Source: Nymphaea colorata | Lineage: Eukaryota; Streptophyta; Magnoliopsida; Nymphaeales; Nymphaeaceae | DNA length: 64,000 bases | Reading direction: 5' to 3' | Assembly (NCBI RefSeq): GCF_008831285.2 | Contig: NC_045138.2 | Span: 1,189,143-1,253,142 of the forward strand | Shown here: one piece after another, positions 21,148 through 64,000 of the stretch | Layout of the letters: every line of letters starts with the position of its first letter | How positions within the stretch are numbered: the stretch's first letter is position 1 | Translations under genes and position numbers: made by a program | Notes under the pieces: model-generated | What the model saw: the letters and a program-made list of their open reading frames with translations, nothing else | What the model was told of the DNA's origin: nothing | Databases searched by the model: none

Positions 21148-21698
21148 CTGCCCATTGATGGACAAACTTCACAATCTTCCTAACCGAAGAAACTGTTTCT
21201 TCATAAATATAGAATAGAGAGAGAAAGAGAAGCTGGTTCTAAAGAATTTGAGGAATTAAGTAGGAGAGGGGAGGAGGAACACCATGGGCAAGATCATGAA
21301 GAAGGGTGCCATGAAGAGACCAGTGACCCTTGATGTTCTTTCAGGAGAAGTCTTTGCAGAGATCGTAACACGCGTTGTTTGTTCGTCACCGACCAGGTTG
21401 TCGGTTCCTGATCTTGCCAACATGAAGCTCACGTAAGTTTTCTGTTATCTCCTACATATTCAACTTTCAAGCACTCTGCATGGATTCTCTGCAATGACTT
21501 CTCCTGAAAGAACATCAAGAGTCACTGGTCTCTTCATGACACCCTTATTCATGATCTTGCCCATGGTGCTCCTTCTCTCATCTCCTACTAAATTCCTCAA
21601 ATTTGTAAGAACCAGTTTCTTTCTCTCTCTTCTATATTTATGAAGATGTAGTATTTTCGGTTAGGAAGAATTGTGAAGGTATGCATAAATAGGCAGGT
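21148..21698. repeat. F-box foldback 1 (inverted repeat around F-box exon 1)
   Basis: The left arm (21,148–21,361) holds the leader unit (CACAATCTTCCTAACCG), a GA-rich stretch and the first half of an F-box exon. The right arm (21,487–21,698) is its imperfect reverse complement, from TCTGCAATGACTTCTCCTG to TGCATAAATAGGCAGG. The loop is about 125 bp and holds the second half of the exon plus the intron donor. Confidence 0.75.
21284..21432 (+). pseudogene. F-box exon 1 inside foldback 1
   Basis: Open frame MGKIMKKGAMKRPVTLDVL, then SGEVFAEIVTRVVCSS and LSVPDLANMKLT, ending at an intact GTAAG donor (21,433). It lacks the LP pair of the F-box core (LS here). No exon 2 follows: past the donor the DNA turns into the reverse complement of the exon, so no protein beyond this exon is possible. 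Confidence 0.55.
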
Positions 21699-21699
21699 C

Positions 21700-22253
21700 T
21701 TCGCATGTTTGACAATAAAAAAATATTTTTAAATTATAAAATATTTTTTAAAATAGTAAAATAACTATTATCAAATTAGAAATTAATAAAAAATTATTTT
21801 ATAAATATTATCGGGCTGAACCGGGCCCTGGACCGGCCCGATAGCCGAAACCTAGGGCTGGGCTGGGGCTTGATACTAAAAAAATATTTTTAAATAAATT
21901 TTTAATAGTAAACTACAATTTATTAAATTAAAAAATAATAAAAAAATTATTTTTAAAATATTACCTGGCTTACAAGGGCCGGGCCCAGCCCGATAATTGA
22001 AACCCGTGTCGAATCCTGCCCAGCTTGTTTGATAATAAAAAATATATTTTTAAAATTATAAAATAATTTTTAATAGTATAACACACATTATTAAATTAAA
22101 AAATAATAAAAATTATTTTTTTAATATTACCGGGCAGGATCGGCCCTAGTCGGGCCGACCTGGGTTGAAGCATCAGGCTCGGGTCCGGGCCTGGGCCCGA
22201 CCGAGCCAGGTACTGGGTACCCGTTGGGGGCCCGTACCGGTGCCCACCCCTGG
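21700..22253. mobile_element. hAT-like non-autonomous element end with internal repeats
   Basis: Three units of about 160 bp (starting near 21,709, 21,871 and 22,028) alternate AT-rich DNA with GC-rich blocks (GGCCCGATAGCCGAAACC). The block ends GGTGCCCACCCCTGG, the reverse complement of CCAGGGGTGGGCACC, which matches the hAT terminal consensus CAGGGGTGGGCA. No matching opposite end is visible and there is no transposase. Confidence 0.55.
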
Positions 22254-22523
22254 AAACCAACAAGGGAGGAAACCTTTTTTTTAAACCATAAGTTCAAGAG
22301 AGGTTTTTGTAAAAATCTCTAAATTGTCAATTATAAGCCGAACGTTCCTAACTACCCTAGAGTTAGGGTCCTGAGCAGACATCACATTGTTTCTAATGTT
22401 TCAGACACCTGTTTTAAAGTTTCGAATAGATACATAAACAACTCCAATATCTAGGATGTATGTATAAAACAAAAATTTTGTCGAACAAATTGACCCCTCC
22501 ACAAACTGGATGGAACTAGCCTG
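22254..22523. other. spacer between hAT-like end and NBS fragment B
   Basis: Conserved non-coding flank (AACCAACAAGGGAGG… to GGATGGAACTAGCC), present also at 43,684–43,955 and 50,962–51,226 and partly deleted before 29,735. It continues the 3' side of the NBS fragment on the minus strand with no LRR sequence. Confidence 0.5.
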
Positions 22524-22791
22524 TGGTCATCCTATTGTCCCCTCCAAGAAATCGTAACTTAACTTTAGAATGTCAAAGACCTTTTTCTCCACACCTTCGG
22601 TCTCGCCCGTGCATTTTTTCAGAGCTCTCAAAGTATCCTCCCACACCCCGGCATCGTCATTGTTCCTTAGGGCTGCTCCAATTGTGGTGATCGCTATCGG
22701 CAGAGCACCGCACTCCCTGAGGACCTCCATTGCAATTTTTTCTATAGGTGGTTGTTTGATGACATTCCCTGTGTTATGAAGGAATAGGGAC

Positions 22792-22796
22792 ATTGC
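22792..22796. other. Copia 1 target site duplication (left)
   Basis: ATTGC immediately before the 5' LTR, repeated at 27,503–27,507 after the 3' LTR. Five bases is the normal Copia target duplication, and uninterrupted fragment A has a single ATTGC at the same place. Confidence 0.92.
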
Positions 22797-23107
22797 TGTT
22801 AGTTAATGTGAACGTGTGAGCAATATGTGGAAGTGGAGACCGTGTAAACATGTGGTGGTTTTTTTTTAGTTTCTTTTCTTTAGCCATAAAAATAGGAATT
22901 AGTGGTTATGTGTCCACAAAATGAGGCTGCTTTTGGCAAGTGGCATTAGTGGGTAGTTTTTTCTTTTGTTCTTTAAATACTAGTACATGCGTGTAGTCCA
23001 AAGTGTGAGAAAAAGAAAAATAGTATTGAGTTTCTTTTGTTCAACTTTACCTTAACGTGACTTTCTTTAGTTTTGTTTGTGTGTGGGAGTTAGAAAGACT
23101 TCCTTCA
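22797..23107 (+). repeat. Copia 1 5' LTR
   Basis: 311 bp starting TGTTAGTTAATG and ending ACTTCCTTCA (TG…CA). Differs from the 3' LTR by about five substitutions and a few indels, including TTATGTGTCC against TTGTGTCC. Copy 2 shows the same 5'/3' differences. Confidence 0.92.
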
Positions 23108-23111
23108 ATCT

Positions 23112-23125
23112 TGGTATCAGAACGC
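23112..23125 (+). other. Copia 1 primer binding site
   Basis: TGGTATCAGAACGC, complementary to the 3' end of initiator tRNA-Met (canonical TGGTATCAGAGC), four bases after the 5' LTR. Copy 2 keeps the canonical GAGC, so copy 1 carries a G-to-A change here. Confidence 0.85.
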
Positions 23126-23221
23126 CAGGTTGCGTGGGCATCTCAAGTATCGTGGAGCATTGCAGAAGCAAAGAACTCCAAATCGTGTGCTATTGATAAG
23201 AGTTATTTTTTGAAAGCTGGT

Positions 23222-26200
23222 ATGGCTAATTCAAATACTCTCAATTTATCCCAATCCTTAGTTCCTATTTTTAGTGGTGAGAACTATGAGTTTCGGAGTA
23301 TCAAAATGAAGAGTTACTTCATTTCACAAGACCTTTAGGAGTTAGTTGAGAATGGTTATGCAGAAATTGAAGTATCAAAGGCAGTAGGAAAGTCAATAGA
23401 GAAAATTGATGTTAAGGAATTTCGGAAGAAAGATGCAAAGGCACTCTCAGTATTGGAGTAGGTTGTATCAGAGACTGTCTTCCCAACTATTGCTGGAGCA
23501 GAGAAGTCAAGTGAAGCGTGGCTATTCCTCAAACAAAAATTTCATGGAGATAAGAAGATTCCTACAGTTAAGCTCCAAATCATAAGGAGAGAGTTTGAAA
23601 CATTTTGCATGAAAACTGGTGAGTCCGTTCAAAATTATTTTTTTAGACTCTCTACTATTGTAAATCAAATGAAGAGTTTCGGTGAAGCCATAACCGAGCA
23701 AAAGGTGGTTGAAGTGTTAAGAAGTCTTCCTTCTAAATTTGATTATGTTGTCACTGCAATAGAAGAATCCAAAGATTTGTCTATTTATTCTATTGATGAA
23801 CTAATGGGGTCTCTTTTAGCACATGAGCAACGCATGAACAGGTCAACAAAAAAAGGAATAGAGCAAGTTTTCCAAACAAAGATAGAGTTTTCAAAAGAGA
23901 AGAATGGAAGCTATGATCAAAGAAATGAAGGAAGGAGTCAAGGACGAGGAGGCTATAGAGGAGTCACTCGTGGTTATGGTAGAGGACGTGGAAGATTCCA
24001 TAGAAATTTCCATAAAACCCATGACACAACAGGGAAAGATAATCAAAATCAGTACTTTAGAGGAAAACAATGTAACTTTTGCAAGAAGTTTGGTCATATA
24101 GAAGATCAATGTTTTGAAAAGGCAAAACAACAAGCTAGTTTTGTAGAAGAAAATGAGAATTTATTTCTTACAACTATGGATGCTAACCGTTGCAAGAGTG
24201 AAGTTTGGTTTGTAGATAGCGGCTGCAGTAATCATATGACTGGTGACAAGAGTTTTTTTAAAGACATTGACGAGACTATAAAGTTGGATGTGTGGCTTGG
24301 AGACAACAATAGAATAAGTGTGAAGGGTAAATGAACAGTTATCATCAAATCAGAAACAGGTATGAAAAGATTTATTAATGATGTGTATTACGTCCCCGGG
24401 TTGGCTCAAAATTTGCTTAGTGTTGGACAACTAGTTCAAAAAGGGTACACACTTTTATTTGAAAATCATGCTTGTGAAATTAAAAATAAAAGTGGTGTAG
24501 TTCTTCCAAAAGTAAATATAGTTCGAAATAAAATGTTTCCTCTTGAGACAAATGCTTTTATGACAAAAATTGATGATTCCAAGCTATGGCACGTGAGATA
24601 TGAGCATCTTCATTTTAATGGGTTGAAACTCTTACATCAAAAAGGTATGGTATATGGACTGCCATCTATTGATTGTCATGATGATGTATGTGAAGGGTGT
24701 GTTTATGGTAAACAACATAAATTACCATTTCAAGTTGAAAAATCATGGAGAGCTAAAATGCCGCTTCAATTAGTTCATGCTGACATATGCGGTCCAATGA
24801 AAACTTCTTCATTAAATGGTAGCAAGTATTTTTTGCTATTTAGTGATGATTACAGTAGAATGAGTTGGGTATATTTCCTCAGTCACAAATCTGATGCAAT
24901 GGATAAATATAAAGAGTTTAAAGTTTTTGCGGAAAAAAAGTGAAAATGTAATAAATATACTGCGTATGGATAGAGGGGAAGAATTTTTGTCTGACGAATT
25001 TGATTTATTTTGTAAAAATTGTGGGCAGTTTACAGTAAGGAAGTCCCCACAACTAAATGGTGTGGCCGAAAGAAAAAATCAGACAGTGGTGGAAATGACA
25101 CGCAGCATGTTAAATGAAAAACAATTACCTAGTGAATTTTGGGCTGAAGCAATCCATACGGCAGTATATCTTCTCAACATTTCTCCAACAAAGGCCGTCA
25201 GAAACAAAACTCTATTCGAAGCATGATGGAATCGCAAACCAAATGTAAGTATGTTAAAAGTCTTTGGATGTGTTGCATATGCATTAATTGATCCTAGTGA
25301 AAGAAGCAAGTTGGATAAGAAGAGTGAAAAATACATTTTCATTGGTTATAGTAGTGAAACTAAGGGTTATCGTCTTTATAATCCTATCACTAAGAAGTTG
25401 ATTATAAGAAGAGACATTATATTTGATGAAAAAGCTTGCTGGGATTGGGTTAAGAATGAAACCATGAAACTCCAATTTGACGGGGAAGAAGTGAATCCAA
25501 ATCATATTGACGAAGAACCAAAGGAGAAAGATGAAGCCTTGAAGGAGACGATCAATGAAGGCATTGAATCCATTTCTGAAGAAACTCCACCAAGAAAGGT
25601 ACGATCCTTAAATGACATTTATAAGTGTGCATTTGCTTTTGTTGTTATAGAACCTTCAACTTTTAATGAAGCATGTGTAGACAAAAATTGGATGAATGCT
25701 ATGGAAGAGAAAATACAAACCATAGAAAAGAATGACACATGGGGGCTCTCTAAGTTGCCGACGGGGAAGGAACCAATTGGAGTAAAATGGGTCTATAAGG
25801 TGAAGTATGATGCTAAAGTTAACGTGAAAAAATATAAAGCAAGGCTGGTTGCTAGAGGTTTTGTGCAAGTATATGGAATTGATTTTACTGAGACGTTTTC
25901 ACATGTTGCAAGATTTGAGACAGTAAGAATGGTTCTTTCTATTGCTGCTCAATTTAAATGGAAAGTTTTTCAGTTTGATGTCAAGTCTGCTTTCCTAAAT
26001 GACTATTTGAATGAAGAAGTGTATGTTGACCAACCACCTGGATTTAAAATTAAAGGAAAAGAAGACACGGTTTATAAACTTAAAAAGGCATTATACGGAC
26101 TTAAACAAGCTCATTGTGCTTGGTATAGTCGTCTTGATAAATTTCTTCATCAAAATGGCTTTCAAAGAAGTGATAGTGAGCCAACTCTTTATGTCAAAGT

Positions 26201-27180
26201 GAGTGAAAATCATTTACTTATTGTAAGTGTTTATGTGGATGACATTATCTATACTAGCACTTCTTCTAGCCTTATTGCAGAATTTAAAAATTGTATGATG
26301 AGGGAGTTCGAAATGTCTAATTTGGGATTGTTGCATTACTTTCTTGGTCTTCAAGTAGTACAAAGTGATGAAGGAATCTTTATATCGCAAGGAAAATATG
26401 CATTGGATACTCTGAAAGTTTAAAATGATGAATTGTAATGGTTGTGCAACTCCCATGAACACCAACGCAAAGCTGAATGCAGATGATGAAATGGCAAAAG
26501 TAAATGAAAAATATTTCAGAAGCATGGTCGGTGAATTGATGTACTTGACACATACCAGACCTGACATTGTTTTTTCAGTGAGTTTGATATCAAGGTTCAT
26601 GCAAGATCCTTCAGTGCAACATCTTGGTGCAGCAAAAGGAATTTTTCGTTACATTCAATCTACACTCAACTATGAAATTTTTTATAAACCTGTGACTAAC
26701 TTTGGTTTAATTGGATATACTGATAGTGATTGGGCAGGTTTTGTTGATGATCGAAAAAGTACAAGTGGTTTTGTATTTGGATTTGGTTCAAGTGCTGTGT
26801 CGTGGTGCTCAAAGAAACAAAGTTCAACAGCCTTATCCTCTTCGGAAGCTGAGTATATTGCTGCTACTGCTGCTGCATGTCAAGCGATATGGATGAGACG
26901 TATTTTAGAAGATCTTCAATTGAAGCAAGAGAATCCAACTCAGTTATACTGTGATAACAAATCTACTATTTCCATGACAAAAAATCTGTCATTTCACGGA
27001 AGGACTAAACATATAGAGTTACGTTATCACTTTATTAGAGACGTGATTTAGAAAGAAGAAATTGAGTTGAAGCAATGTTTCACAAAAGAGCAAGTTGCGG
27101 ATGGTTTTACAACAGCACTACCACCATCAACGTTTTTCAATTTTCGAGAAGCGATTGGAGTACAAGAGTTTTCACATTAA
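23222..27180 (+). pseudogene. Copia 1 gag-pol, decayed
   Basis: Translation from MANSNTLNLSQSL reads gag with a zinc knuckle (CNFCKKFGHIEDQC), protease (WFVDSGCSNHMTG), the H-C zinc region (CEGCVYGKQHKLPF), integrase core (HADICGPM, FSDDYSRMSW), reverse transcriptase with YVDD (26,232–26,243), and RNase H (YTDSDWAG; SSSEAEYIAA; LYCDNKST). Breaks: stop after FISQDL (about 23,336); stop at 23,460; TGA at 24,332–24,334 after the protease; frameshift at about 24,940 plus a 9 bp loss near 25,025 in integrase; TGA at 25,224; a two-base loss near 26,420 before RNase H; a stop after RDVI shared with copy 2. Not autonomous now. Confidence 0.92.
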
Positions 27181-27190
27181 GGGGGAGAAA
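27179..27190 (+). other. Copia 1 polypurine tract
   Basis: AAGGGGGAGAAA directly abuts the 3' LTR; it is the plus-strand primer site expected in an LTR element and overlaps the stop codon of pol. Confidence 0.9.
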
Positions 27191-27502
27191 TGTTAGTTAA
27201 TGTGAACGTGTGAGCAATATGTGGAAGTGGAGAATGTGTAAACATGTGGTGGTTTTTTTTTAGTTTCTTTTCTTTAGCCATAAAAATAGGAATTAGTGGT
27301 TGTGTCCACAAAATGAGGCTGCTTTTGGCAAGTGGCATTAGTGGGTAGTTTTTTCTTTTGTTCTTTAAATACTAGTACATGCGTGTAATCCAAAGTGTGA
27401 GAAAAAGAAAAATAGTATTGAGTTTCTTTTGTTCAACTTTACCTTAACGTGCCCTTCTTTAGTTTTTTTTTTTGTGTGTGGGAGTTAGAAAGACTTCCTT
27501 CA
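27191..27502 (+). repeat. Copia 1 3' LTR
   Basis: 312 bp, TGTTAG…TTCA, followed by the target duplication ATTGC (27,503–27,507) and the continuation of the NBS fragment (ATCTTTCCAGCAC). Confidence 0.92.
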
Positions 27503-28062
27503 ATTGCATCTTTCCAGCACATGGCTTCCGTCTTGATGTTTCTGCCAGTTTGCATGGCATCGCATGCATCAAGGGTTCTACTTACGGCCACCACTTTGAT
27601 TCCATTTGCTGGATCAGGAACAACCAACACACGTATATCGAAGCCTTGCCAGACAACATCTAATACCAACAAGTACTTTCCACCCTTCATTTTTGTTGAA
27701 ATCAGTTTTTCTCCTTCGCTTAGATCGGCTCCTTTGGTGGAAAGAGTGCTTTAGGTAGCAGGCAATCTTCTGTTGCAGGCATTTGTAGTCGGATCTTTGC
27801 CTACTACGATGTACATGATGAAGTCAAACTCTTTAGCTTTTGTTGTCCACATGCTTCACGATACTAGTCTCACCGACTCCCCCCATTCTATGGATGCCGA
27901 TCCTTGATATCCCGACATCTTGTATGCTGTCCAAAATTTCCTTAACGAAGCGAGTAGTAGTATCTTGCACATCCAATGGTTCCAGGATGAGTGGCTGTCT
28001 CCAATCGATTTCTCGAGGCCTTGACACTTGTTCCGCCTCCAAAGGTGCCTTCTTTATATGAT

Positions 28063-28497
28063 AGCATTACCTACTTCTTGAAAGTTTTCGTTTGCATTAG
28101 TACCTGCCTAATCAAACTTCCAACTATAATAAATTTGTTAACAAAAACTTTATTTAGGAGAAGCTCATGCAACTAATTATTACAATTCTGGCAACATTAC
28201 GATAATTTCTTCAACAAAAGCACTATCCAAGCACATGCATTTTCTAAAGCAAACTAAGACAGGCATTCAGAAAGAAAAGAAACACTATAATCTACTTGTT
28301 TTTTGACATAGTAAAAGGAAAAAACATACAAAACCACACACTTGGGTTTCGGCTATCGGACTGCGCCCGGGCCAGCTCTATAATATTTAAAAAATAATTT
28401 TTTTATAAATTTTAGTTTGATAATATGTATTTTACTATTTTAAAAATTATTTTATAATAAAAAAAATCATTTTTTTATTATCAAATGGGGCGAGATC
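28063..28497. other. spacer of the NBS repeat unit (second occurrence)
   Basis: Equivalent of 20,713–21,147, including the AT/GC-rich block from about 28,345. No gene. Confidence 0.5.
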
Positions 28498-29053
28498 TGC
28501 CTATTTATGCATACCTTCACAATCTTCATAACCGAAGAAACTGTTTCGTCATAAATATAGAATAGAGAGAGAAAGAGAAACTGGTTCTTACGAATTTGAG
28601 TAATTAAGTAGGAGAGGGGAGGAGGAACACCATGGGCAAGATCATGAAGAAGGATGCCATGAAGAGACCAGTGACTCTTGATGTTCTTTCAGGAGAAGTC
28701 TTTGCAGAGATCGTAACACACGTTGTTTGTTCATCACCAACCATGTTGTCGGTTCTTGAACTTGCCAACATGAAGCTCACGTAAGTTTTCCGTCATCTCC
28801 AACATATTCAACTTTCAAGCACTTTGCATGGATTCTCAGCAATGACTTCTCCTGAAAGAACATCAAGAGTCACTGGTCTCTTCATGATACCCTTATTCAT
28901 GATCCTGCCCATGGTGCTGCTCCTCCCATCTCCTACTAAATTCCTCAAATTCGTAAGAACGAGTTTCTTTCTATCTTTGTCTCTCTCTTCTATATTTATG
29001 AAGTTGTAGTTTTTTCAGTTAGGAAGAATTGTGAAGGTATGCATAAATAGGCA
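28498..29053. repeat. F-box foldback 2
   Basis: Left arm 28,498–28,709 (TGCCTATTTATGCATACC through the first half of the F-box exon), loop about 123 bp, right arm 28,833–29,053 ending TGCATAAATAGGCA. Arms mirror each other with scattered mismatches. It is closely similar to foldback 1 and to 49,841–50,398. Confidence 0.8.
28632..28780 (+). pseudogene. F-box exon 1 inside foldback 2
   Basis: Open from ATG to an intact GTAAG donor (28,781): MGKIMKKDAMKRPVTLDVL, then SGEVFAEIVTHVVCSSPTML and SVLELANMKLT. As in foldback 1, the exon is followed by its own partial reverse complement rather than by exon 2. Confidence 0.55.
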
Positions 29054-29059
29054 TCTCTT

Positions 29060-29592
29060 GGGCCGTTTGATAATAGAAAAATATTTTTAAATTATAAAAT
29101 TAATTTTTTTAAATAGTAAAACACATATTATCAAATTAAAAATTAATAAAAAATTATTTTTTAAATATTATGGGGCTGCCCCGGGGCCTGGCCCGGCCCG
29201 ATAGCCGAAACCTAGGGCTGGGCTGGGGCTTGATACCAAAAAAATATTTTAAAATAAATTTTTAATAGTAAACTACAATTTTTTAAATTAAAAAATAATA
29301 AAAAAAATATTTTTAAAATATTACCTGGGTGATCAGGACCGGGCCCAGCCCGATAGCTGAAACCCGTGCCCAACCCTGCCCAACTTGTTTGATAATAAAA
29401 AATATTTTCTAAATTATAAAATAATTTTTAATAGTAAAACATACATTATTATATTAAAAAATAACAAAAAATTATTTTTCAAATATTATCGGGCTGGATC
29501 GGCCCTGGTCGGGCCGACCCGGGCTCAAGCTTCAGGCTCGGGTCCGGGCCCGGGCCCGACTAGGACAGGTACTGGGTACCCGTTGGGGGGCC
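29060..29592. mobile_element. hAT-like repeat, 3' end deleted
   Basis: Same alternating AT/GC unit structure as 21,700–22,253, but it stops after GGGTACCCGTTGGGGGGCCAT. About 147 bp, including the GCCCACCCCTGG terminus, are missing compared with 50,940–51,086. ATC at both edges of the deleted segment suggests a microhomology deletion in this copy. Confidence 0.55.
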
Positions 29593-29734
29593 ATCACACT
29601 GTTTCTAATGTTTCAAACACCTGTTTTATAGTTTTGAACAGATACATAAACTACCCCAATATCTAGGATGTATGCAAAAAACTAAAATTTTGTCAAACAA
29701 ATTGACCCCTCCACAAACTGGATGGAACTAGCCT

Positions 29735-30919
29735 GTGGTCATCCTATTGTCCCCTCCAAGAAATCGTAACTTAACTTTAGAATGTCAAAGACCTTTTTCT
29801 CCATACCTTCGGACTCGCCCGTGCATTTTTTCAGAGCTCTCAAAGTATCCTCCCACACCCCGGCATCGTCATTGTTCCTCAGGGCTGCTCCAATTGTGGC
29901 GATCGCTATCGGCAGACCAGCACACTCCCTGAGGACCTCCATTGCAATTTTTTCTATAGGTAGCTGTTTGATCACATTCCCTTTGTTATGAAGGAATAGG
30001 GACATTGCATCTTTCCAGCACAAGGCTTCCACCTTGATGTTTCTGCCAGTTTGCATGGGATCGCATGCATCAAGGGTTCTACTTACGACCACAACTTTGC
30101 TTCCATTTGCTGGATCAGGAACACCCAACACACGTATATCGAAGCCTTGGCAGACATTATCTAATATCAACAAGTACTTTCCACCATTCATTTTTGTTGA
30201 AATAAGTTTTTCTCCTTGGCTTAGATCTGCTCCTTTGGCAGAAAGAGTGCTTTAGGTAGCAGGCAATCTTCTGTTGCAGGCGTTTATAGTCGGATATTTT
30301 CCTACTACGATGTACATGACGAAGTCGAAATCTTTAGCTTTTGTTGTGCACATGCTTCACGATACTAGTCTCGCCAACTCCCCCCATTCTGTGGATGCCG
30401 ATCCTTGATATCCTGGCGTCTTGTATGCTGTCCAAAATTTCCTTAACGAAGCGAGTAGCAGTATCTTGCCCGTCCAATGGTTCCAGGATGAGTGGCTGTG
30501 ACCAATCGATTTCTCGAGGCCTTGACACCTGTTCCGCCTCCAAAGGTGCCTTCTTTATATGTGCCGTAGCAATACCAACAGTTGGGCAATTCATGGCAAC
30601 AGGTGCACGTCCCTTTGGCGTTCGGAAAGCCTTTGAAAATGCACTCTGCTTCATCCTTTAGCTCCTGAGTCTTCATCTGCCACTCTTCTTCCTCTTGTCG
30701 AATATCTCTACCTTTAAGATCTTCATCTCTCACCAAGTTATTGACAAGCACTTCTATCTTTCTTAGCTCACTGATTTCCCTTCCCAGAGTTTCATAGTTC
30801 GTTTCGTGGTTCTTTAGGTAACCTGCATGCCTCCTTGCATGGACGTACGTCCTTTTGAGCGATGCAAGAAGGCACTCACAGATGGCATCGGCTGGGATGG
30901 GGATGCAGCCGCAGGCCAT
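29735..30919 (-). pseudogene. CC-NBS resistance pseudogene C
   Basis: The longest NBS relic in unit 1. It starts MACGCIPIPADAICECLLAS and has a coiled-coil region (LKNHETNYETLGREISELRK; EEEEWQMKTQELKDEAE) to CTCCHELPNCWYCYGT, as in RPS2-like CC domains. A frameshift near 30,560 leads into the linker and P-loop (GIHRMGGVGETSIVK, lysine replaced by E), a second shift and stop lie before kinase-2, then KYLLILDNVCQ, GSKVVVVSRTLDAC, GLPIAIATIGAALR and KVFDILKLSYDFLEGTIG. Only about 10 residues separate the CC end from the linker, so DNA was lost there. No LRR follows. Immune-receptor origin is clear; function is not expected. Confidence 0.85.
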
Positions 30920-31024
30920 TCTGATTCTTCTCTTTGGTCCGCCCTTAAACCAGCAAGATGGTAGCTGCCATTGCAGGTAATGGGATTTTCAGATGGATAC
31001 TGGCGAACAAGAGCAAGGCATCCT

Positions 31025-31032
31025 TTTATATA
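31025..31032 (-). promoter_or_regulatory. possible TATA box of CC-NBS pseudogene C
   Basis: TATATAAA on the minus strand, 106 bp upstream of the ATG at 30,919. It is conserved in the duplicate near 52,517–52,524. Position is plausible; there is no further support. Confidence 0.35.
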
Positions 31033-32360: not shown

Positions 32361-32367
32361 TAAGAGG

Positions 32368-32437
32368 TGTAGTGTAGCTGGACTGGTTAGCGGACTAGTG
32401 AAAGTCTAATCATTGGTTTGATTCCTCTGAGTGCTAC
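32368..32437 (+). repeat. tRNA-derived SINE-like head
   Basis: An A-box-like TAGCTGGACTGGTTAGCGG (32,375–32,393) is followed 40 bases later by a B-box-like GGTTTGATTCC (32,415–32,425), the spacing of an internal Pol III promoter. GCT/AGC can form the D stem, but acceptor and T stems pair poorly, so this is not a functional tRNA. A SINE head is the likelier reading. Repeated at about 53,861–53,930. Confidence 0.4.
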
Positions 32438-32439
32438 TG

Positions 32440-34725: not shown

Positions 34726-34730
34726 GTGAT

Positions 34731-37495: not shown

Positions 37496-37499
37496 GTTA

Positions 37500-50398: not shown

Positions 50399-50403
50399 TC
50401 TCT

Positions 50404-52524: not shown

Positions 52525-55500
52525 TCAGAGAATTGAACAAGTCCAGATGATCGTCCTCATGCCTCTTAGTTAATCCTCTAGCTGGCCAGCGTTGGGACAT
52601 GGCCTAGAGTAATGCCCATGTCACCATCATTGAAGAGGCTTCCACTAATCCGTGATGATGTTAAAAGGGTCCATTCATCCTGTATAACAGCTGTTAGAAA
52701 GATCTCCTGTCAATAGTTAGAAATTAGAATAGAAGTCAGAAGATTAAAATGCCTCTAATTTTTTTTTTTTAAAAAAAGCTCTACAACTTGTCTAAGTAAA
52801 AAGTTGACGTCTATGTGTTAAAGGTCATCCCAAGGAGACAGGTTTGTCTAAGTAAATATGTAATTCAAATACGCCTTATGTTCAGACTTCCACCGACTCT
52901 TCTGAGCCACAATCGGGCAAATGAGTGTTATTTTGTAACGGTGCATAAAATAGAAATTCAAACAAAAGGAGGCTGAATGAAAAGGTCAAAACATTAATTT
53001 TAGGACTAAATGTGTTCTATCACCAAGCTTAACATTACATTGGATCCCAGAAACACAATTGATCACGTGATGACATTGGTAGATGATGAATAACGGCATC
53101 TGTAAAAATGAAACATTGACATGCCAATAAAAGGCGATGCACTTCTCAATACAATTTAGGTGTGGATGTGACAAGATTTAAAGCAGATAAACATATATGC
53201 ATTATCTTTTACATGCATTATCTTTTTTCACAAAAATATGACGTGCTAGACAAATGGATAATCATGTTGAGTGTAGGGACAGTGCCCCTTTCAAAAAAAA
53301 AGTAAAGATTTTTAATTTTTTTCATTCTTAATCTTCATATTTTTCTTGGTCTGTCCTAATTACCTTTAACTTCATGCTTGCAGACATTTGATGAAACTTT
53401 TGGACAAGAATCTTCATAGAAACATTGCCGGCTCATAGAAGATATTATAATCATCAAGAAAATACTGCTTTTACTGTTAAAATTAAATAGGCTAGTAAAG
53501 AAAAAACACCACGCATATCAGGTTAATTTTTATAAGATTCCAGTCCCCTTGGACAGGTCACGGATCAAATCCTATACAAAGATTTTGCTATTTTTATACT
53601 GCAGATCTAAATCCCAATGTATCTATGTCTCAATGAGTGGGAGGAAATTCCACTAGCGGAGTAAGGGTGCATTGCTTCCAGCCCAAAGGCATATGGAGTA
53701 TGTGATGCTCATATCATTCACAAGTGATCAGCCCAAAGGCATTGAGGTTAAGGGCAAATCCAATCCATTTCATGTTCCATATGATGGACCTGATGCCGTC
53801 TTCAATGAATAGTTGAATTATATACCTTTAAAATCAATCATCAACTATTTACTTTAAGAGCTGTAGTGTAGCTGGTCTGGTTAGCGGACTAGTGAAAGTC
53901 TAATCGTTGGTTTGATTCCTCTGAGTGCTACTGTTAGAGACTGCAAACATAAATGTGTTACACTTTAGTTTGTCGAAGCAATCATATACCTCCGGGGAAA
54001 GAGGAAAGGGGAAGTTTGTACCTCTCTTCAAATCGACAATCCAATATTCTTTGATCTCAAAATTAGATTCGGATGAGACACTGGCTTCACTTTGCAAACA
54101 TGCGCATATGACCAGGACAAGCATCCTACTGCTGGTATGTATGCATTCGAACCTAAATCAGGATTTAACTTCATCAATAATGAATCAGCTATAAAAAGTA
54201 TATAATATTTTAACACTAAACTAACTATTGCATTTAGAAAGGATTCAAATCCAGGTCCGGTTCAGATCTATACCCAATTAGTAGTTGAGGTCAACAATTG
54301 GGTAGGCAGCATCCGGACCCGCTTAGTTATCAGACAAAGCCAGTCCAGGAAAGAGATAAAGAGGGGACACCGAACGAGGGGGTGATAAAGTCGCATTTAA
54401 AACAACAGTAAGAATGTAAGGAGTACAAGTGGTTATATTGATTCAATGAATACTTGTGGACTGATACACATGGCCCCAACAGTCACCCTGTGGACCAAAC
54501 AAATTAATAAATGCGATCTGCAAAGTGTATTTAATAAAGATTAGGTAAGCTTTGAGCGGCACTATTTAAATGCATACGAAGGGAGAAACAATAAGGGCGC
54601 ATAAATCATGATGCATCAAACTTGACGGCTTAAAAAAATTATGTTTCTGATGAGAAAAATCATACTAAAGGTAGGTTCTTTCAGCTGAATCTATTTGAGC
54701 TACATTGAATCAAGTGTTTCTTTTTTTCTTTATTTTGCCTTGTACTTCGGAGTGGAAATTCCAGTTGGACTGGACTTGCCGCTGCAAGACTCAAATCTAA
54801 ATTCAAGAGCGACTGGGTGTAACAGATCTGGACCTAGTCCATACGGCACATATGAGAAATTATTGATGTCCTTTTCATTGGAAAGTTTCCCCTCAATTTT
54901 AGAAATTTGGATCAGAACCCAGATCTTGTATGAATTACTACGAAATTCATACCCGGAAGGATATTAGTATATTACTAATAGTTACCTACAGATCTCATCA
55001 AAACTGGATCATATTCAATGCCTTGACACCCAACTGACCTGATCGTGAGATGCGAACATGGATCTTTTCCATGTAATTCATTTTCTAGATTCGACACTTC
55101 GGATAGGCACACAATTTTTTTTTTTAGTTATTTGAGGTAAACAGGGAATAGTACTTCACCATACTGCCTACCACCCAAGAAGAAAGCCAAAACCCCCATC
55201 CTTCCCCGTCCCTGAAGACTGAAGATACCTCCACCACCTATCATATTTGACCTAATAAAATCTTTGTTATCAACACTTCATAAATCATCTAAAGGGGTCT
55301 CGATTGGAATCTTTACAGATAACCAGCCTAGAAAATCTAAAAAACTAGGCAAAAAAGAAGACACTATATGAAAATATATATATATTTTTGTGGAATTAAC
55401 TTTTTTCATACTTTATTTTGATAAAAAAAAATCAGAGACCAATGATACAGTGCAGAAAGTAGAATAAGCAACAGATGTTAGATTTAATTACGGCTGACTT

Positions 55501-56210
55501 AAACGAAACCTGGACTTTTTTTTATTATACAAGTTTTTGGACTTGTTAATGCGTAGTTATACATTGTTGATTTTGGAGTTGGCAATATTGCACATTATAT
55601 TTGAATTGGGAGAAAATTGATAAGATTTTTGTCAACCAGAAAAATAAATATGATTGTATGTATGCATAATCCAATCAAGATCAAACTCGGATGTGTTTAG
55701 AAAAACAATGGATCCGCTTGTAAAATTGTTTACAACATGAATTTGCGACTAAATTAATTTGTGCAGCCTCATAGCTAACTATGACCGTCAAGTAGATAAT
55801 CATTCGGCACAATTTCTTGAGTTCTCCAGAGGTTCTGCAAAGCAATTTTTCCATGTGCTTGCATTGCTCTCGTGCAGCACAGCAGGATTCTTCTTTTTCT
55901 TTTCTTCCAGTTGTACTTAGGGACCCACCAAAGAAGCCCCGCTACAAGGAACACTAGCACAGCTGAGAAAAAGTGGTGGGGAGAGAGACGGTTGGGTCCC
56001 ACCTTTTCACTAAGATGCATGCTTGGTGCAGTGGCTGGGGGCTTGTTGAGAGGCTTGAGTCTAGCTACCAAAGTATGAAATATTGGTCGTATTTTCAGGT
56101 TTTAACATACATATACATATATTAAAGCTGAAATCTGCCGGCCAGATTTTATAACTCAGTTAGGAGAGCTGAGAGTGCTAATTGTTGAGGACACCGAAGG
56201 CACAACAAGC
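52525..56210. other. intergenic DNA (duplicate of 31,033–34,725)
   Basis: No gene supported. The SINE-like box pair recurs at about 53,868–53,918. A 98-residue minus frame at 55,775–56,071 (with VLVFLVAGLLWWVPKYNW) is broken in unit 1, so it is unlikely to be a conserved gene. Confidence 0.4.
53861..53930 (+). repeat. tRNA-derived SINE-like head (duplicate)
   Basis: TAGCTGGTCTGGTTAGCGG then GGTTTGATTCC, same spacing as 32,375–32,425 with one substitution in the A box. Confidence 0.4.
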
Positions 56211-56215
56211 GATAC

Positions 56216-56345
56216 TTCTCCCCTCTCCTACTAAATTCCTAAAATTCCTAAGAACCAGTTCCTCTCTTTCTCTCTCTTTTATATTTATGAAGAGGTAGTT
56301 TCTTCGGTTTGGAAGTATTGTGAAGGTGTGCATAAATAGGCAGGT
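56216..56345 (-). repeat. isolated F-box leader relic (duplicate)
   Basis: Matches 34,731–34,863; no exon attached. Confidence 0.6.
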
Positions 56346-56536
56346 CCACCATCATGACATGCATAAGATATCTGATGAGCCAAACCCATTTAACTTGATG
56401 GAGATATTGTAAGCTATACAATTGCGTTGAATGCTTATTGACTCGTAGAAAGATCAAATATTACTTTTTCGATATATCTGAGTCCAGACAGTCGGATAAT
56501 TGTGGACTTGGTTAAGAATCCAATCGTGATCGATCT

Positions 56537-57090
56537 TCATATGTTCTTGAGAAAACTAACTTTTAGGATTCCAGATGGATCCATCAGTTGCTTGTCTAGC
56601 TCCTCTTCTTCGACACCCTTCTCAGTCTGCAACTCCTCCTCATCATCTTCATCTTTACTCACTTCCCAATCTCCTTCCTTCCTGACTTCCTCGCTCCTCA
56701 CAGACTTGTCTTCGTAGAAGTGCGTGGTGGTGATTTCTTCCTTGCCATGGGAGGAGTATGGAGCTTCTGGGAGCCATTCTTCCTCTTGACGTATTCGTTG
56801 TAAATGTGCGGTGTTGGGCTCGAGGTGCCCAAAAATTTGGACGCCTCAACACGGACGATGACGATGACATTGGAGACAACAAACAGGAATTTGGGCAAAG
56901 GATGTCACCCATCATGTTGGGAAGGGAGACACACAGAAGAGACTTGATGAAGAATCAGAGGGGAGAAAGCCATAGAGGGCTTGAAGCCCACCATGATTGG
57001 TGTCACTGCATAGAAGGTGAGCTTGTGGAGATAATTGGTCTTCTTGTACTTGACCATGGCCCAGAATTTCTCAACTTTTGCGGGTTCCAT
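56537..57090 (-). pseudogene. DUF4408/DUF761-type gene, left arm (duplicate)
   Basis: MEPAKVEKFWAMVKYKKTNY … then the same 8-base loss as in unit 1, followed by KFLFVVSNVIVIVRVEASK, FLGTSSPTPHIYNEYVKRK and the acidic tail. It lacks about 12 bases of leader next to the ATG that unit 1 keeps. Confidence 0.5.
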
Positions 57091-57884
57091 AGCAGTAAAA
57101 GAGAAAGAGAGGGAGAATGAAAAAAAGAGAGCTCACAATCCGGATAAAATTTTGGGAGCGGGATTCAAGTTCATTGAATAGGAGAGAAGATAGAGGGAGA
57201 GCAGAGGAGGAATTCCATATGAGAAAATAAATCAGGTGGGGGAGTTTATATAGCATTGAGGAAGATGGTGGTAGTGGTTTTGCTTCAACTATGCTGCCTT
57301 TTAGAGAGAGAGAGAGAGAGAGAGATTTCTCATATGAAATTCCTCCTCTGCTCTCTCTCTCTATCTTCTCTCCTATTCAATGAACTTGAATCCCGCTCCC
57401 AAAATTTTATCGGGATTGTGAGCTCTCTTTCTTTCATTCTCCCTCTCTTTCTCTTTTACTGCACATCTCTTGAGCTATGGAACCCGCAAAAGTTGAGAAA
57501 TTCAGGGCCATGGTCAAGTACAAGAAGACCAATTATCTCCACAAGCTCGCTTTCTATGCAGTGACACCAATCATGGTGGGCTTATTTTTATCAAGCCCTC
57601 TCTGGCTTTCTCCCCTCTGATTATTCATCAAGTCTCTCCTGTGTGTCTCCCTTCCCAACATGATGGGTGACATCCTTTGCCCAAAATTCCTGTTTGTTGT
57701 CTCCAATGTCATCGTCATCGTCCGAGTTCAGGCGTCCAAATTTTTGGGCACCTCGAGCCCAACGGCGGACATTTACGATGAATATGTCAGGAGGAAGAAT
57801 GGCTCCCAGAAGCTCCATGCTCCTCCCATGGCAAGGAAGGAAACCATCACCTCCCACTTCTACGATGACAAGTCAGTGAGGAGC
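56694..57884. repeat. head-to-head inverted repeat of the DUF4408-type gene (duplicate)
   Basis: Left arm 56,694–57,227, right arm 57,326–57,884, spacer about 98 bp with the TATA-like motif (57,245–57,252) and a GA run two bases longer than in unit 1. Confidence 0.88.
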
Positions 57885-58106
57885 CCAAAAATTTGGCAGC
57901 AATTGGTTCTTAAGAATTTGAGGAATTTAGTAGGAGATGGGAGGAAGACCACCATGGGCAAGATCATGAAGAAGGTTGCCATGAAGAGACCAGTGACTGT
58001 TGATGTTCTTCCTGCAGAAGTCATTGTACAGATCGTAGGATGCGTTGTTTCTTCATCGCCAGCCATGTTGTCGTTTCCTGATCTTGCCAACATGAAGCTC
58101 ACTTAA
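57477..58106 (+). pseudogene. DUF4408-type / F-box chimera, donor lost (duplicate)
   Basis: Same chimeric frame as 36,005–36,634 with the same in-frame TGA (57,618–57,620), open again from 57,660 through MGKIMKKVAMKRPVTVDVL and PAEVIVQIV to KLT. Here the intron donor is CACTTAAAT instead of CACGTAAAT, so GT is gone and the frame stops at TAA 58,104–58,106. The exon 2 sequence (CKMLHEAARDRWVLRRATIV) persists from about 58,189 but can no longer be joined by the normal splice. Confidence 0.55.
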
Positions 58107-58576
58107 ATTTTCTATCATCTCCAACATATTCAACTTTTAAGCACTCTACATGCATTCTTTAAAGGGTTTGATTCAAATGGAGTGGCAGGTGCAAGATGCT
58201 GCATGAAGCTGCAAGGGATAGATGGGTGCTCAGACGAGCCACCATTGTGGATGATTTGTGGTTTTTTTTCTAAGATTTGGCAGCAACTGAAAACAGAGAC
58301 AAGTATTAACCTTCTCCTCTTGATCTCCATTTGATTTCTTAATCTTAAGATGAAAAAGTACGTTGATGAGCCTTCTTAATTTGTTGCTTATGACTAATAA
58401 GTTACTTCGGCTAAAACTCGTCATTTAACTTTTTGAAAGCTATTGGTTTGTAAGAATTTTAGTGATGCAAAGTGGGAGACCATGAAATATATCAAGGATT
58501 GACCAGAAAACGATCAATTATTTTTGCATTAATGTCGTTGATAATGAAAACCTGCAAACTGAACCATCATGCATGG

Positions 58577-58967
58577 TTCACCAAAATGCATCTGTCAGCA
58601 ATGTTGATGTTAATTTTGATGGTGGCCACTATGACAGTGGTTGTAGTAGAGAGATATAGAAAGAAAGTAGTCATGAATCATGATGGTTAACCTACTTGCA
58701 AAACATAATAGTAGTTACCAACCAGTTATGATTATCTTTCCAATCTCTTGGAACAAAAGCAAACTATAGTAATAAAACTAAAAAGAAACAAGCATTTATG
58801 TGAACCATCGGAAGACTTCTGTTGCAGGAAATTAGTCCGAGGTTTATTCAGCAAACTAGAGGCGCACACTATCACAATGGTCGGTAGGTGGAATGTCTAT
58901 GCATGCTGTGATGTCCACTACGTAATTCAGAAAGGAAGGGATAAGGAGTCGTCCTCTATTCATTAGA
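58577..58967. repeat. dispersed segment (duplicate of 37,105–37,495)
   Basis: Third copy of the segment first seen at 5,700–6,090, same order of landmarks, ending TATTCATTAG. Confidence 0.45.
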
Positions 58968-59539
58968 GTTAGAAGAATGTCCATGGTTGAATGCGTGCTT
59001 CGTAATCTTTTTTCTTCACTTAACCCAAATTCATTCGTTGATTCCTGGTGCCTTTACTTTCATGTCCTCTTTTACTCTCTGGTGCTTCGCTTGTGGATTA
59101 GAAGGGCGAGCCGGATGCATTCGGAAATGACATATATAATCATGTTTAGACCACAATTAGCACACACCAGCTTCAGCCCCTGCTTTGAGGACAATTGTAT
59201 GTAAAGACTACACATCTATCTCCATCCTTGTCAATGGATGACAAAAGAAAAAAGAAACAATATGGTAGTACACAAGATTGGACCTTTGGGTCATCTTTAA
59301 TTTTACCATATTGCTTTGCCAAGGCAACACCATCATGTAAATTTTAGTCTTCCCACATAGAGGGGAAGACATAGGTTCAAGGAATGGAACTTGCAAAGAA
59401 GAAATGGTGCAATAGCAATGCAACTGCATTCTTAAGACAATAAGTGCAAACCCGAAACCAATGAAGAAAGAAAACAAGACTAAAGAATGGGAAAGTGCAT
59501 TCTTGAGACCATAAGTGCAGAATTGAAAGTGTAAGGTTG

Positions 59540-59722
59540 TTTTTGGTTCACCGTAGATCTGAGATCCATAGTGATCTGAAAACTCTAATATCTAAAATCC
59601 ATGGATTTAAGATCGGACACCACCCCCAAATCCGATCTTAAATTCATGGTTTTTAACATTTAGCATGAATTTGAAATTCATGCTATTAATTAAGATCTTT
59701 AGTTTGTTTAAACTGAAGATCT
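59540..59722. mobile_element. hairpin cluster, foldback MITE-like (duplicate)
   Basis: Same palindromes as 38,103–38,230 (TTTAAGATCGGA/TCCGATCTTAAA, TAGCATGAATTT/AAATTCATGCTA, the AGATCT pair). Confidence 0.6.
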
Positions 59723-59892
59723 CTCAAAACACGTCTTTTAATGCAACCTGGGATAAGATACAACCAAAAGGAAAAAAACATTATGAAAGATAGAGAGTTG
59801 ATAGTGAATAAGTTTTGAAGATGAGAGGCATGAAAGAACCACAGAAGAAGCATTCTTATAAAAGAAGAAGAGAAAGTACAGAAAACGGTATG

Positions 59893-59951
<59 letters not shown>

Positions 59952-59953
59952 CC
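59893..59953. repeat. (CT)n microsatellite, long allele
   Basis: About thirty CT repeats with one TATCT interruption near 59,940; roughly three times the unit 1 allele. Confidence 0.9.
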
Positions 59954-60826
59954 CCTATGTTCTGGAATGGTCAAAGCTATTACGCGAGCCTCTATATATC
60001 CTTGCAATCTCGTTCACTGCACCCAAGGGGGAAGATGTCTTTCTTTTTTAAGATGTATTGCCTCTATTGCTGTATTATTTCTGGGAAAATGTGAGATTTT
60101 GGAAGATAATTGTATCCATAAAAGATGCCATTTGATGTTATTTTAGGATATTGTGGAAGTGACAGTTCATTTTGAATAATAATGTACATAGAAACACACG
60201 AACAGAGGATACGTTTAATATATGTGATAATCTGTTTTGTAATAATACAAAACAAATTTAATTCGTAGGTACCATGAATCGCCGTAAATGAGAGAGGTAA
60301 AATCATGGAATGGTCCTTTAAACGGAAAAGGGGTAAAGGCGACATCCTTCAACTCAGACAAAATACCATATACACATTACATAGTGAAATTGAAATCAGT
60401 CCGCCAACATCTATTGTCAGTTGAGTTATTTTTATATTTTTATATTTCGTGATGTTAAAAACTGTTGCCAATGTTGAATTCTGCAGATAAAAATGGTGAT
60501 CAATATATTACAGTCACAGAATGCTGTGACGGCTTTTTGATTCACAAAATTTGAAAAAAAAAAAAAAAACTCATGTGAGCATTGGCTGGTTGATTTTAAT
60601 CATAAATCATAACTAGATTTGCAATTTAAGTGGTCTACCCTAACCACACCGTTTTTTTTTTTCTCTTTATGACAACACTGACAAGGAACTCTCTAGAGGA
60701 TGGGACCGGCGCTTAATTGACTTTCTTTTTTTTTTTTTTTTTGGTTTGGTTTGAGAGGCTAGGTCACCGACTAGCAGCCTAAAACCAAAGGCTACATTCC
60801 ACCAAAACTATGGTTAATATTCTTGT

Positions 60827-61231
60827 TAGGGATGTCAACGAATGAGATATATCGGTAATCATATCCACTTTTTCATATATTGATATGTTCTGATTCGAAT
60901 TCGAATAAAGAAAAGTCATATCTAAATCTGAATCTGAAATCCAATTTTTCAATCCAAATCTGATCCGAATCCGAATTTTAAACCGGATTTTGCCAAATCT
61001 CAAAATTTGATAGCATTAAATACTGGATATTTGTTAAAAAATGAATCCAATCCAAATCTGTATGCGAATCTGATCAGTTATTTATGTATATCCGAAACCA
61101 ATTGGATGTCATTTATTAAGTCTGAATCCGATCCGATATCTTAATGGGATATTAAACTTTTTTCCATAATCAATGTTTTTGAATCGGATCGGTCGGATAT
61201 CCGATTCAAATCGGATATATTGACATCCTCA
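60827..61231. mobile_element. hAT-like MITE (duplicate)
   Basis: Same termini as 39,239–39,643 (TAGGGATGTCAACG … TTGACATCCTCA). Substitutions against unit 1 stop at position 61,100 within this element. Confidence 0.6.
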
Positions 61232-62147
61232 TGTGTTGTGTTGTACAAAATGCTAACTTGGTCAATGAATCAACCGGTCACCTATTAAGAATGCACGCAC
61301 AGGCAGACATGTTTTCTTGTGTTCTCTTACCTAACTAAATATATTATTGCTGATCTTATTCTTAAAAATCCTCAAACAAGACAGAAGTCATATTTCTAAT
61401 ACAGGTAAATAAGATTTAATCTCTAAAACAACAAATCGACGTATAGCCTGAACTATTTTGATTTGTAAAATCTAGTTTACGTACAAAGAAGTATGATGCG
61501 TTATATGACCAATTGTTAACTTTCAGAAGATAACATGCACAGTTCATTTTTTCCATTAAAGAATCAAACTCAATATAGTTTCTTGTGCATGAGGTCCAAA
61601 CATGGTTGCTCAAAGAATGGTTGTGTTCCTCATTCTTTTTTTGTCCTTGCCCGTATCTTTATAATCACAAGGTGCTGGTCGGTATTGATATGGATGGATG
61701 ATTCGCATTTTATGTTCATCTACTACTTATTCGTCCTCCTTTTGGTCTATAGAAATTGTGGAAAGAGATGACCTCGCTTGGCAGTTCTGCAGGGTTTTTA
61801 AAGTATGTAATAATACGTCATATTTGCACGTTGACCATAATTTTAAGACTACCAATTTCGTAGTTGTGCGGCCTTTGCATTTTTGTTTGGATTAGTTGAG
61901 TGAAACCTCACATGCATGCTCTCATTGGAATTGAGCTGCTCTTCTATCTACAAGTTGGAACTAAGAATACATTTGGTGACCGACAGTCAAGGATAGATGT
62001 TATCCATGTTAGCAAAATTATAGGGATGGATTATCTACAGCTGCCTATTCAAGATTTTCTCATGGTTTCCTTATCTCATTGTTCCCTTATCCATCATATT
62101 CTGTTACTTGTTTAACACGAGAATCCTCTGTGATTCTCTTGACTAAA

Positions 62148-62288
62148 TCGGTCTGGTTGTATTCTATATATTGAAAGTTCATCTTCTCTCAAATTATCAG
62201 AGAATGAATAAAGTGAGAGCTCCCCTTCCCATGGATGTAGGCATCAAAATGCCGAACCACGTACATTCTTGATTTTTCCTTTTTCCTA
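62148..62288 (+). repeat. Copia-type LTR relic (duplicate)
   Basis: Exact match by eye to 40,560–40,700. Confidence 0.5.
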
Positions 62289-62675
62289 TTTCATATTTTA
62301 ACAATCCATGACGCAGATCTTGTGTTCATACTACCGTAAGTGTAACCCATGCTGATAGGTGCAGTGAACATGGGTACAACTATGTATTGCTGTATCCTAG
62401 GACTTAAAAATTTATTTTCAAATTTAATTTTTTAAATTTTGTCTTTTCCCTTCTTTTTTATTTTCCTTCCACCAAGATTCCATATTCTCTTATTATTTTT
62501 CTTTAATTCTTGATTATTCGTGTGGATATATATATATATATATATATATAATGCATATATTCATATACACACTCCCATCATTTCAAATTTTCTAAAATCA
62601 CCATACCCATACCCATGTACCTGCTACTTTACCCCTATATCTAAATTTTCTAAAATGGCCATACTCGTAGTCTGG

Positions 62676-63018
62676 TACCCACGTCACCATGTACCCATGT
62701 ACCCACTGAAGTAGCAAAGCCCCATCAACAGGACTCTTGTAGTGTCATACAAGCTTTCTCCACTATAGCCACATGTACAGGTCTGGTGACTCAGGTCTTT
62801 AGGATGCTTTTTTTTACCGCTACGATTATTGCTATATCGGCGGTGAATTGAAATTTCTGTTATGAGATATTCTAGCCGTGACAATATCACCGGTATGGAT
62901 CTGCACTACTGTTAATGACTATGGCATGGGAAAAGATCTATAACAGTGAATATTCTCACTCTATTAGTATATTTATATTTTTAAAAAAATGGCACTGCTT
63001 GTAAAGCAGGCACAATTT
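62676..63018 (+). repeat. dispersed repeat (duplicate of 41,088–41,430)
   Basis: Identical apart from one T fewer in a homopolymer near 62,982. Confidence 0.55.
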
Positions 63019-63322
63019 GGTGCTAGCTTTCATTTGCATTGGTTCAGCAAAAGCCATCTATCTAACAGAAATAAAATAGTCAACTTTTGAGCTGAGAAAT
63101 GATAGCGATGGGAAGTCGACCTTACAACATAATGCAAATAAATTTGTCAACAATATCTTACCTTGTTGGTGTTAGATTTTGTTACCATATATACATTTCT
63201 TGTAGCCGTTAATGTACAGTTGAGGATTGTACGCCTTCCTTCTTACCTCTCTTTCTAACTCAAATTACATAACCAGTGAAGATGGCTCCAATGTACAATA
63301 GCTTCTACAGACAACAACTCTA

Positions 63323-63616
63323 TTGATGAATGACACTCCCTCTCCTCGAAACCAAAAGGATGATGCTCGATGGTTATCAACTCTAACAGAAGATGGCAGG
63401 TGGGGATCAATCCTGCAGGCTATTGAAGATAATAATCACCACAAGGTAGCTGCTATGGGTAAGGATCAACATAAGGCAGCTGCGGTGGCCAAAACCATTA
63501 CCGATATGGTTGATCAGAAAATTAAGAAAGGAGATCAAATGTGTAACCAAGAAAATTGTCAAGAGATTGACAGTTTGAGAAAACGGCTAAACCTTCCAAA
63601 TGGTGTAAGCCTTTAA
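63323..63616 (+). CDS. unrecognised 97-residue open frame (duplicate)
   Basis: Identical translation to 41,736–42,029. Family unknown; weak candidate. Confidence 0.2.
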   Translation: MMNDTPSPRNQKDDARWLSTLTEDGRWGSILQAIEDNNHHKVAAMGKDQHKAAAVAKTITDMVDQKIKKGDQMCNQENCQEIDSLRKRLNLPNGVSL

Positions 63617-63789
63617 AAATCAATAGAACCTCTCACACAAACGATTGAGCTCTGAGAGAGAAACTAGTTGCTCGTGGATGTAGACTCAAAACAAAGTCAA
63701 ACCACATTGTTTGAGTTTTCTTGTGCTTTCTCTTTTACAGTATCAAAGCCAAAGTTTCTAAGACGTAAATTTCTTCCCACCCTTTAGAA

Positions 63790-64000
63790 ATGGCAGATTA
63801 CAATAGCAGCCATACACCAGAGTGTTCTACACCAAACACATCACAAAATATAGGTTAGATCTTTCCTGTGCTTCCTACACCTACAAATATGCAGTATCTC
63901 CTTTCCATTAAGCTTGCATCATATAATTATTTGATTTGGGAATCACAGTTCATGCCTCTCTTTAAGAATTATAGTTTTATGTGTTTCATAGATGGTAAAC
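63790..64000 (+). pseudogene. gag relic of the second Copia family (cut by the window edge)
   Basis: MADYNSSHTPECS, stop, then IKLASYNYLIWESQFMPLFK and CFIDGK. Where unit 1 has TAA (42,353) this copy has GAA, so this is closer to the ancestral gag. Confidence 0.65.

Follow-up and report, generated by a model that had tools for sequence, protein, structure and literature searches.

On chromosome 1 of Nymphaea colorata, a segment of 21.4 kb lies in two adjacent direct copies inside the 64,000-nucleotide stretch analysed here (C1:1,189,143–1,253,142, hereafter the window). The best explanation overall is a single real event, a direct tandem duplication joined through a microhomology of 4 bp and followed by drift and gene conversion, and we consider this complete account probable. 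The segment carries relics of nucleotide-binding leucine-rich repeat (NLR) genes, a Copia retrotransposon and pieces of other families. Flanks of 50 kb were added on each side of the window and numbered −49,999 to 114,000 (164 kb in total), and the genome searched comprised 407,766,735 bases in 783 contigs.

The duplicated segment and its edges

Self-BLAST returned a colinear chain of direct matches with offsets of 21,344–21,582, which pairs 21,311–42,413 with 42,744–64,000. With the flank included, the final matching block extends over 39,002–42,747 and 60,584–64,330, and the second unit ends at 64,326, that is 326 bp outside the window, where the shared ATGA follows. Full alignment of unit 1 (21,433 bp) with unit 2 (21,583 bp) revealed 412 substitutions at 21,297 aligned positions (1.93%) and 26 indels with 422 bases in total. 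Tandem segmental duplications are adjacent direct copies of at least 1 kb that are at least 90% identical; the present copies are direct, adjacent and 21.4 kb long with 1.93% substitutions, and at such a match length chance is no issue. A preliminary description of the window had proposed a recent direct tandem duplication of about 21.4 kb with a visible junction, and the BLAST chain and the full alignment agree in bearing this out. Its start at 21,311, its junction at 42,743/42,744 and its estimate by eye of about 1–2% divergence were all accurate, and the self-alignment of the window plus flank that it had suggested as a check yielded two direct copies and placed the right edge at 64,326.

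The nature of the junction emerges from a three-way comparison of the edges, which read GTGCC/ATGAAGAG on the left (GTGCC/ATGAAG), AATGG/ATGAAGAG at the junction (AATGG/ATGAAG) and AATGG/ATGATGAT on the right (AATGG/ATGATG). The original breaks have exactly 4 bp (ATGA) in common, and the junction therefore joins unrelated sequences via a 4-bp microhomology. Sharing of at least 4 bp was found in 2.2% of about 200,000 random position pairs drawn from the 164 kb, pairs less than 1 kb apart being excluded. The 330-bp tail of the unit (42,414–42,743) has its best other match in the window at E 0.55. The breaks have a few bp in common and no long homology, as is characteristic of a microhomology junction.

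Both outer edges run through elements that the duplication has cut elsewhere. The left break sits in the first arm (20,993–21,362) of a foldback element, which is intact over the left edge of unit 1 and was severed at 21,311 by the break, so the copy at 42,744 lacks the left part. As a single strand the foldback has a folding energy of −289.3 kcal/mol, compared with a mean of −82.2 for 20 shuffled sequences, and inverted repeats with arms of at least 300 bp and spacers of at most 500 bp form eight pairs that occupy 4.7% of the 164 kb. On the other side, a dispersed retroelement is severed at 42,743 in unit 1 and continues unbroken past 64,326 in unit 2. Because one reading frame at the end of unit 2 passes stop-free over 64,326/64,327, while unit 1 enters the foldback at the corresponding point, it is the middle junction that looks derived, and the edges on the outside look native. 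The possibility that the junction is merely a transposon end was rejected, since the matches of the genome search stop there only because the query leaves the retroelement, and the element itself continues past 64,327. The coordinates of the features are collected in Table 1.

Table 1. Features of the duplicated segment and its surroundings (window coordinates)
Feature	Position	Strand	Remarks
Unit 1 of the tandem duplication	21311..42743	+	21,433 bp
Unit 2 of the tandem duplication	42744..64000 in the window, to 64,326 beyond	+	21,583 bp
Junction ATGG/ATGA	42740..42747	+	ATGA, the 4-bp microhomology, occurs at both breaks (left 21,311, right 64,327)
Foldback (inverted repeat) element	20993..21856		Arms 20,993-21,362 and 21,486-21,856
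Dispersed retroelement, part	41831..42743	+	Start approximate, set by the onset of matches on other chromosomes
Tract identical between units	39513..42352	+	Unit 2 copy 61,101-63,939
Older 2.64-kb sub-repeat array, NB-ARC (NLR) relics	19886..30561	-	R0 tail, A 20,155-22,796, B 27,503-30,003, start of C; interrupted by Copia
Copia LTR retrotransposon, unit 1	22797..27502	+	Broken frames, LTRs of about 310 bp, TSD ATTGC, inside the middle NB-ARC relic
Copia LTR retrotransposon, unit 2	44229..48847	+	Same insertion, same TSD ATTGC
100 bp in the unit 1 Copia	25122..25221	+	Absent at 46,565 in unit 2
147-bp deletion site in unit 1	29592..29593		Sequence retained at about 50,938-51,084 in unit 2, also in copies A and A2
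DUF4408-like gene fragments, inverted pair	35210..36412		Arms 35,210-35,756 and 35,854-36,412
LTR, long terminal repeat; TSD, target-site duplication.

Order and age of events

The oldest layer within the segment is an array of 2.64-kb sub-repeats that bear NB-ARC relics, recognised by Pfam with E values down to 7.5e-25, and one of these relics was later split by a Copia element. The element displays gag, integrase and RVT_2 matches, two LTRs and a 5-bp TSD, with the integrase domain rve reaching the cut-off only in the unit 2 piece, and its frames are broken differently in the two units. An empty Copia site is visible at paralogous spots near 29,985–30,025 and 51,480–51,515. The LTRs differ at 1 of 318 (3'–3') and 8 of 319 (5'–5') positions across units and at 6 of 309 and 12 of 309 within units; likewise, 66 of the 67 informative sub-repeat sites pair A with A2 and B with B2. 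Since the TSD is common to both units and like LTRs pair across them, the sub-repeat array and the Copia insertion predate the duplication. The resistance gene relics and transposons that the preliminary description had listed in the block are thus both backed by Pfam domains (NB-ARC) and element structure (Copia). As for an intact NLR frame with leucine-rich repeats (LRR), only fragments were seen, and no LRR family was matched in the frames scanned over 17,800-22,777, 27,505-37,460 and 37,770-42,745.

Between 22,207 and 39,512 the units diverge by 2.07% (Kimura two-parameter distance, K2P). Plant substitution rates are 0.5–1.5e-8 per site per year, and as a rough guide the duplication would accordingly be some 0.7–2 million years old. 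Changes that separate the units include a (CT)n length change, the 147-bp deletion in unit 1 and a 100-bp difference in the Copia element, which we interpret as a loss from unit 2, given that the bases are still present in unit 1. At 37,975–37,998, 16 clustered differences accompany a 20-bp gap in unit 1, which there resembles by eye the sequence from about 38,039; unit 2 is matched by all four older paralogs at 13 of these sites and by three of them at the other 3. This looks like one local copying (template-switch) event in unit 1. With the left outgroup, 24 changes fall on unit 1 and 7 on unit 2 over 37,646–38,380, and with the right outgroup the counts are 26 and 9 over 37,464–38,380. Conversion of 37,646–38,380 in unit 1 by another paralog was considered as the cause and found to be unsupported, the asymmetry being mostly due to the single local event. 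The proposed order would then be the sub-repeat array, the Copia insertion, the 21.4-kb duplication, the indels together with the local copying event and about 2% drift, and last the homogenisation of 39,513–42,352.

An identical tract near the unit ends

That last step is suggested by a tract at 39,513–42,352 which contains no substitution in 2,839 aligned bases and a single 1-bp indel in a T homopolymer run. When the differences between the units were permuted 20,000 times, the longest difference-free run never exceeded 884. The tract is bounded by sequence with 350 differences in 17,176 positions on its left and 11 in 387 on its right, and its last 0.5 kb consists of dispersed retroelement sequence. 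Slow evolution was rejected after comparison of a 637-bp part, which covers less than a quarter of the tract, with an outgroup paralog at C1:1,266,979–1,267,618, from which both units differ by 8.0%; elsewhere in the segment, outside the tract, eight further outgroup comparisons gave values of 6.6–11.7%. Therefore, for that part, one copy has replaced the other, either in the living plant or during assembly. An origin by unequal crossover among three arrayed copies was rejected as well, since identity would be expected to persist to the unit end, while it stops at 42,352, the next 387 aligned bp differ at 11 sites and a third unit was not found in the right flank or among the scored candidates of the genome search.

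Excess identity that is bounded on both sides and not caused by slow evolution is the mark of interlocus gene conversion, and the tract is probably the product of such an event, by which 2.84 kb would have been homogenised between the units much later than the duplication. If the duplication is real, it is possible, though on balance unlikely, that the tract instead arose as an artefact of assembly, correction or polishing inside it. Perfect identity across 2.8 kb is extreme, and the N. colorata assembly is described as the product of Canu, Arrow and Pilon applied to PacBio RSII reads (BioProject PRJNA565347), with 409 Mb in 804 scaffolds and 14 pseudo-chromosomes (PMC7015852). However, the tract has sharp ends within sequence that is 2–3% diverged and a one-base homopolymer difference was kept, and these two features show that the copies were not simply collapsed.

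Mechanism and competing explanations

The initial lesion may have been a break or a stalled replication fork, perhaps located at the foldback hairpin, with repair by microhomology-mediated end joining (MMEJ) or by replication template switching of the kind known as fork stalling and template switching or microhomology-mediated break-induced replication (FoSTeS/MMBIR), rather than by crossover of long repeats. The microhomology, perhaps together with the hairpin, favours end joining or template switching, and the absence of long homology speaks against unequal crossover. Non-allelic homologous recombination between flanking repeats could be entertained in a region this rich in repeats, with its sub-repeat array, foldback family and older module copies, but the breaks have just 4 bp in common, the 330-bp unit tail is unmatched in the left part of the window, and neither a hybrid repeat at the junction nor long homologous repeats at both edges were found; we regard this origin as highly improbable.

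A more serious competitor is a false (heterotype) duplication, in which the assembler would have set two haplotypes of a single-copy region end to end. Alleles can look like copies with 2% divergence and patches of identity, and false duplications are reported to be widespread in three older vertebrate assemblies, with 7 to 24% of them on the same scaffold (PMC9516828). False duplications are described there as typically having halved read depth, one-copy k-mers, discordant linked reads and a gap that separates the copies, and such gaps are listed as a primary mark (PMC9516828). Against this, no assembly gap separates the present copies, and the 164 kb contain no N at all, a point against an artefact of scaffolding. 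Moreover, there is no reason for an overlap assembler to join contigs at 4 shared bp, and both outer edges read as uninterrupted elements, with the break at the middle junction only. The gapless microhomology junction makes a duplication by assembly less likely, and we judge this explanation to be rather improbable. Conversely, because the joining of two haplotypes at 4 bp by an overlap assembler is implausible, a real duplication event in the organism seems very likely.

Several observations weigh against the proposed single duplication with later drift and conversion. The microhomology (0.022) and hairpin (0.047) coincidences are single events that were spotted post hoc, and the duplication is known from the assembled sequence of one individual alone. 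Divergence between the units is very uneven: counted in 250-bp bins, its index of dispersion is 3.2, whereas none of 2,000 permutations exceeded 1.57, and the index stays at 2.5 (at most 1.62 in permutations) when 39,513–42,352 is left out. In particular, the first 895 aligned bp (21311-22206 versus 42744-43638) differ by 5.7%, or 5.9% in a five-way alignment, whereas the homologous B/B2 stretch differs by 1.4%; the derived changes in these 895 bp comprise 15 on A, 25 on A2 and 10 that are ambiguous. A model with a single age does not explain this unevenness; as to the contrast between 5.7% and 1.4%, B and B2 may have undergone conversion with each other, or the severed foldback may be hypermutable. 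Finally, assembly or polishing, instead of gene conversion, could account for the identical tract.

A pair of recent copies among older ones

It had also been suggested that the two units may belong to a longer array. At this age the suggestion is unsupported: beyond 64,326, the next 49.7 kb contain solely older module matches, of which the best reaches 93.5%, and when 39,513–42,352 was searched against the genome, at least two full-length copies were recovered, one per unit (40 of 1,943 first-look candidates were scored, so the counts are lower bounds). Across the roughly 50 kb of flank on either side, no array of more than two same-age copies occurs, and just older module copies, about 84–93% alike, were encountered. 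The same-age copies are therefore best read as a pair and not an array. The idea of a larger repeated locus nevertheless holds for the older layer, as module copies flank the pair on both sides in the same main orientation, one on the left at −42,728 to −32,410 (matching 28,058–39,013 at about 86–93%) and one on the right at 66,526–72,906 (matching 32,823–39,682 at about 84–93%). Other older pieces lie at −4,490 to −1,847, 80,280–80,811 and 85,191–86,664. An array of 257-295-bp tandem repeats at 17899-19529 adjoins the sub-repeat array, and related sequence accompanies the older module on the left at -44873 to -42873.

It is conceivable, though we consider it very doubtful, that the foldback family makes this part of chromosome 1 a recurrent breakage site, which would have seeded repeated microhomology-joined duplications of the relic module, with later conversion keeping the pieces alike. 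If so, one fragile element would have produced, in succession, the module copies of different ages, both those in units 1 and 2 and those lying at −42.7 to −32.4 kb and 66.5–72.9 kb.

Other contents of the segment and window

Beyond the NLR relics and Copia, the preliminary description had named DUF4408 and F-box pieces in the block. The former are supported as fragments by Pfam: taken alone, the pieces score 22.5 and 22.3 bits, which exceeds the cut-off of 22, while the whole frames (15.7 and 15.8) fall below it. They form inverted pairs in both units (35210-36412 and 56693-57884), with arms that are 92.5% and 91.1% alike. Outside the units, DUF4408 sequences form an older inverted pair at -36808 to -34096 and occur singly at 68675-69299. 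Together, the NB-ARC, DUF4408 and Copia sequences point to a plant. The F-box pieces fared less well, as two pieces of 41 amino acids had no Pfam match at E<=1, which is a weak test because they are short, and no F-box domain was matched at E<=1 across 17,800-22,777.

Pfam revealed no intact gene in unit 1 (27,505–37,460 and 37,770–42,745 in six frames, 21,311–22,777 and four open Copia pieces), and thus no intact gene that might gain from an extra copy was found. Scans of the window for Rfam families at the gathering threshold and for tRNAs likewise returned nothing. Outside the duplication, a fragment at 10236-10505 matches Pfam ADH_N (E 4.7e-08). A 49-bp tandem repeat forms three arrays at 244-582, 1901-2238 and 4767-5391, the third apparently reversed, and a two-copy 66-bp tandem repeat with 100% matches is located at 15762-15894.

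Relation to known systems and significance

The duplication agrees with microhomology-associated tandem segmental duplications (the MMEJ/FoSTeS/MMBIR class) in its direct tandem copies, non-homologous breakpoints, microhomology of a few bp and one break in an inverted repeat, and no essential difference from that class was apparent, with the mechanism here deduced from a single junction. Expansion of NLR genes in N. colorata by tandem and whole-genome duplication has been described (PMC7015852), and the tandem copying of NLR-bearing DNA is a shared feature; the NLR pieces of the present segment differ in being broken, and a retrotransposon divides one of them. RPP8 offers a parallel for the candidate conversion tract, since paralogs exchange sequence at a locus with a direct tandem duplication (PMC6771003). 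By that account, however, the tandem pair P1/P2 exchanges little, and extensive exchange takes place with other copies (PMC6771003), and the tract described here differs further in that it spans 2.84 kb, contains no recognised gene and comes from one individual.

Taken as a whole, this is an ordinary event of a known kind, clearly resolved at both edges, and not a new kind of system. Its value lies in how much can be read from one sequence: the junction and the edge on either side, a candidate gene-conversion tract, and the succession of events before and after the duplication. It can therefore serve as a test case for separating real duplications from those created by assembly, and as a worked example of how clusters of relic NLR genes may grow and how their members may continue to resemble each other.

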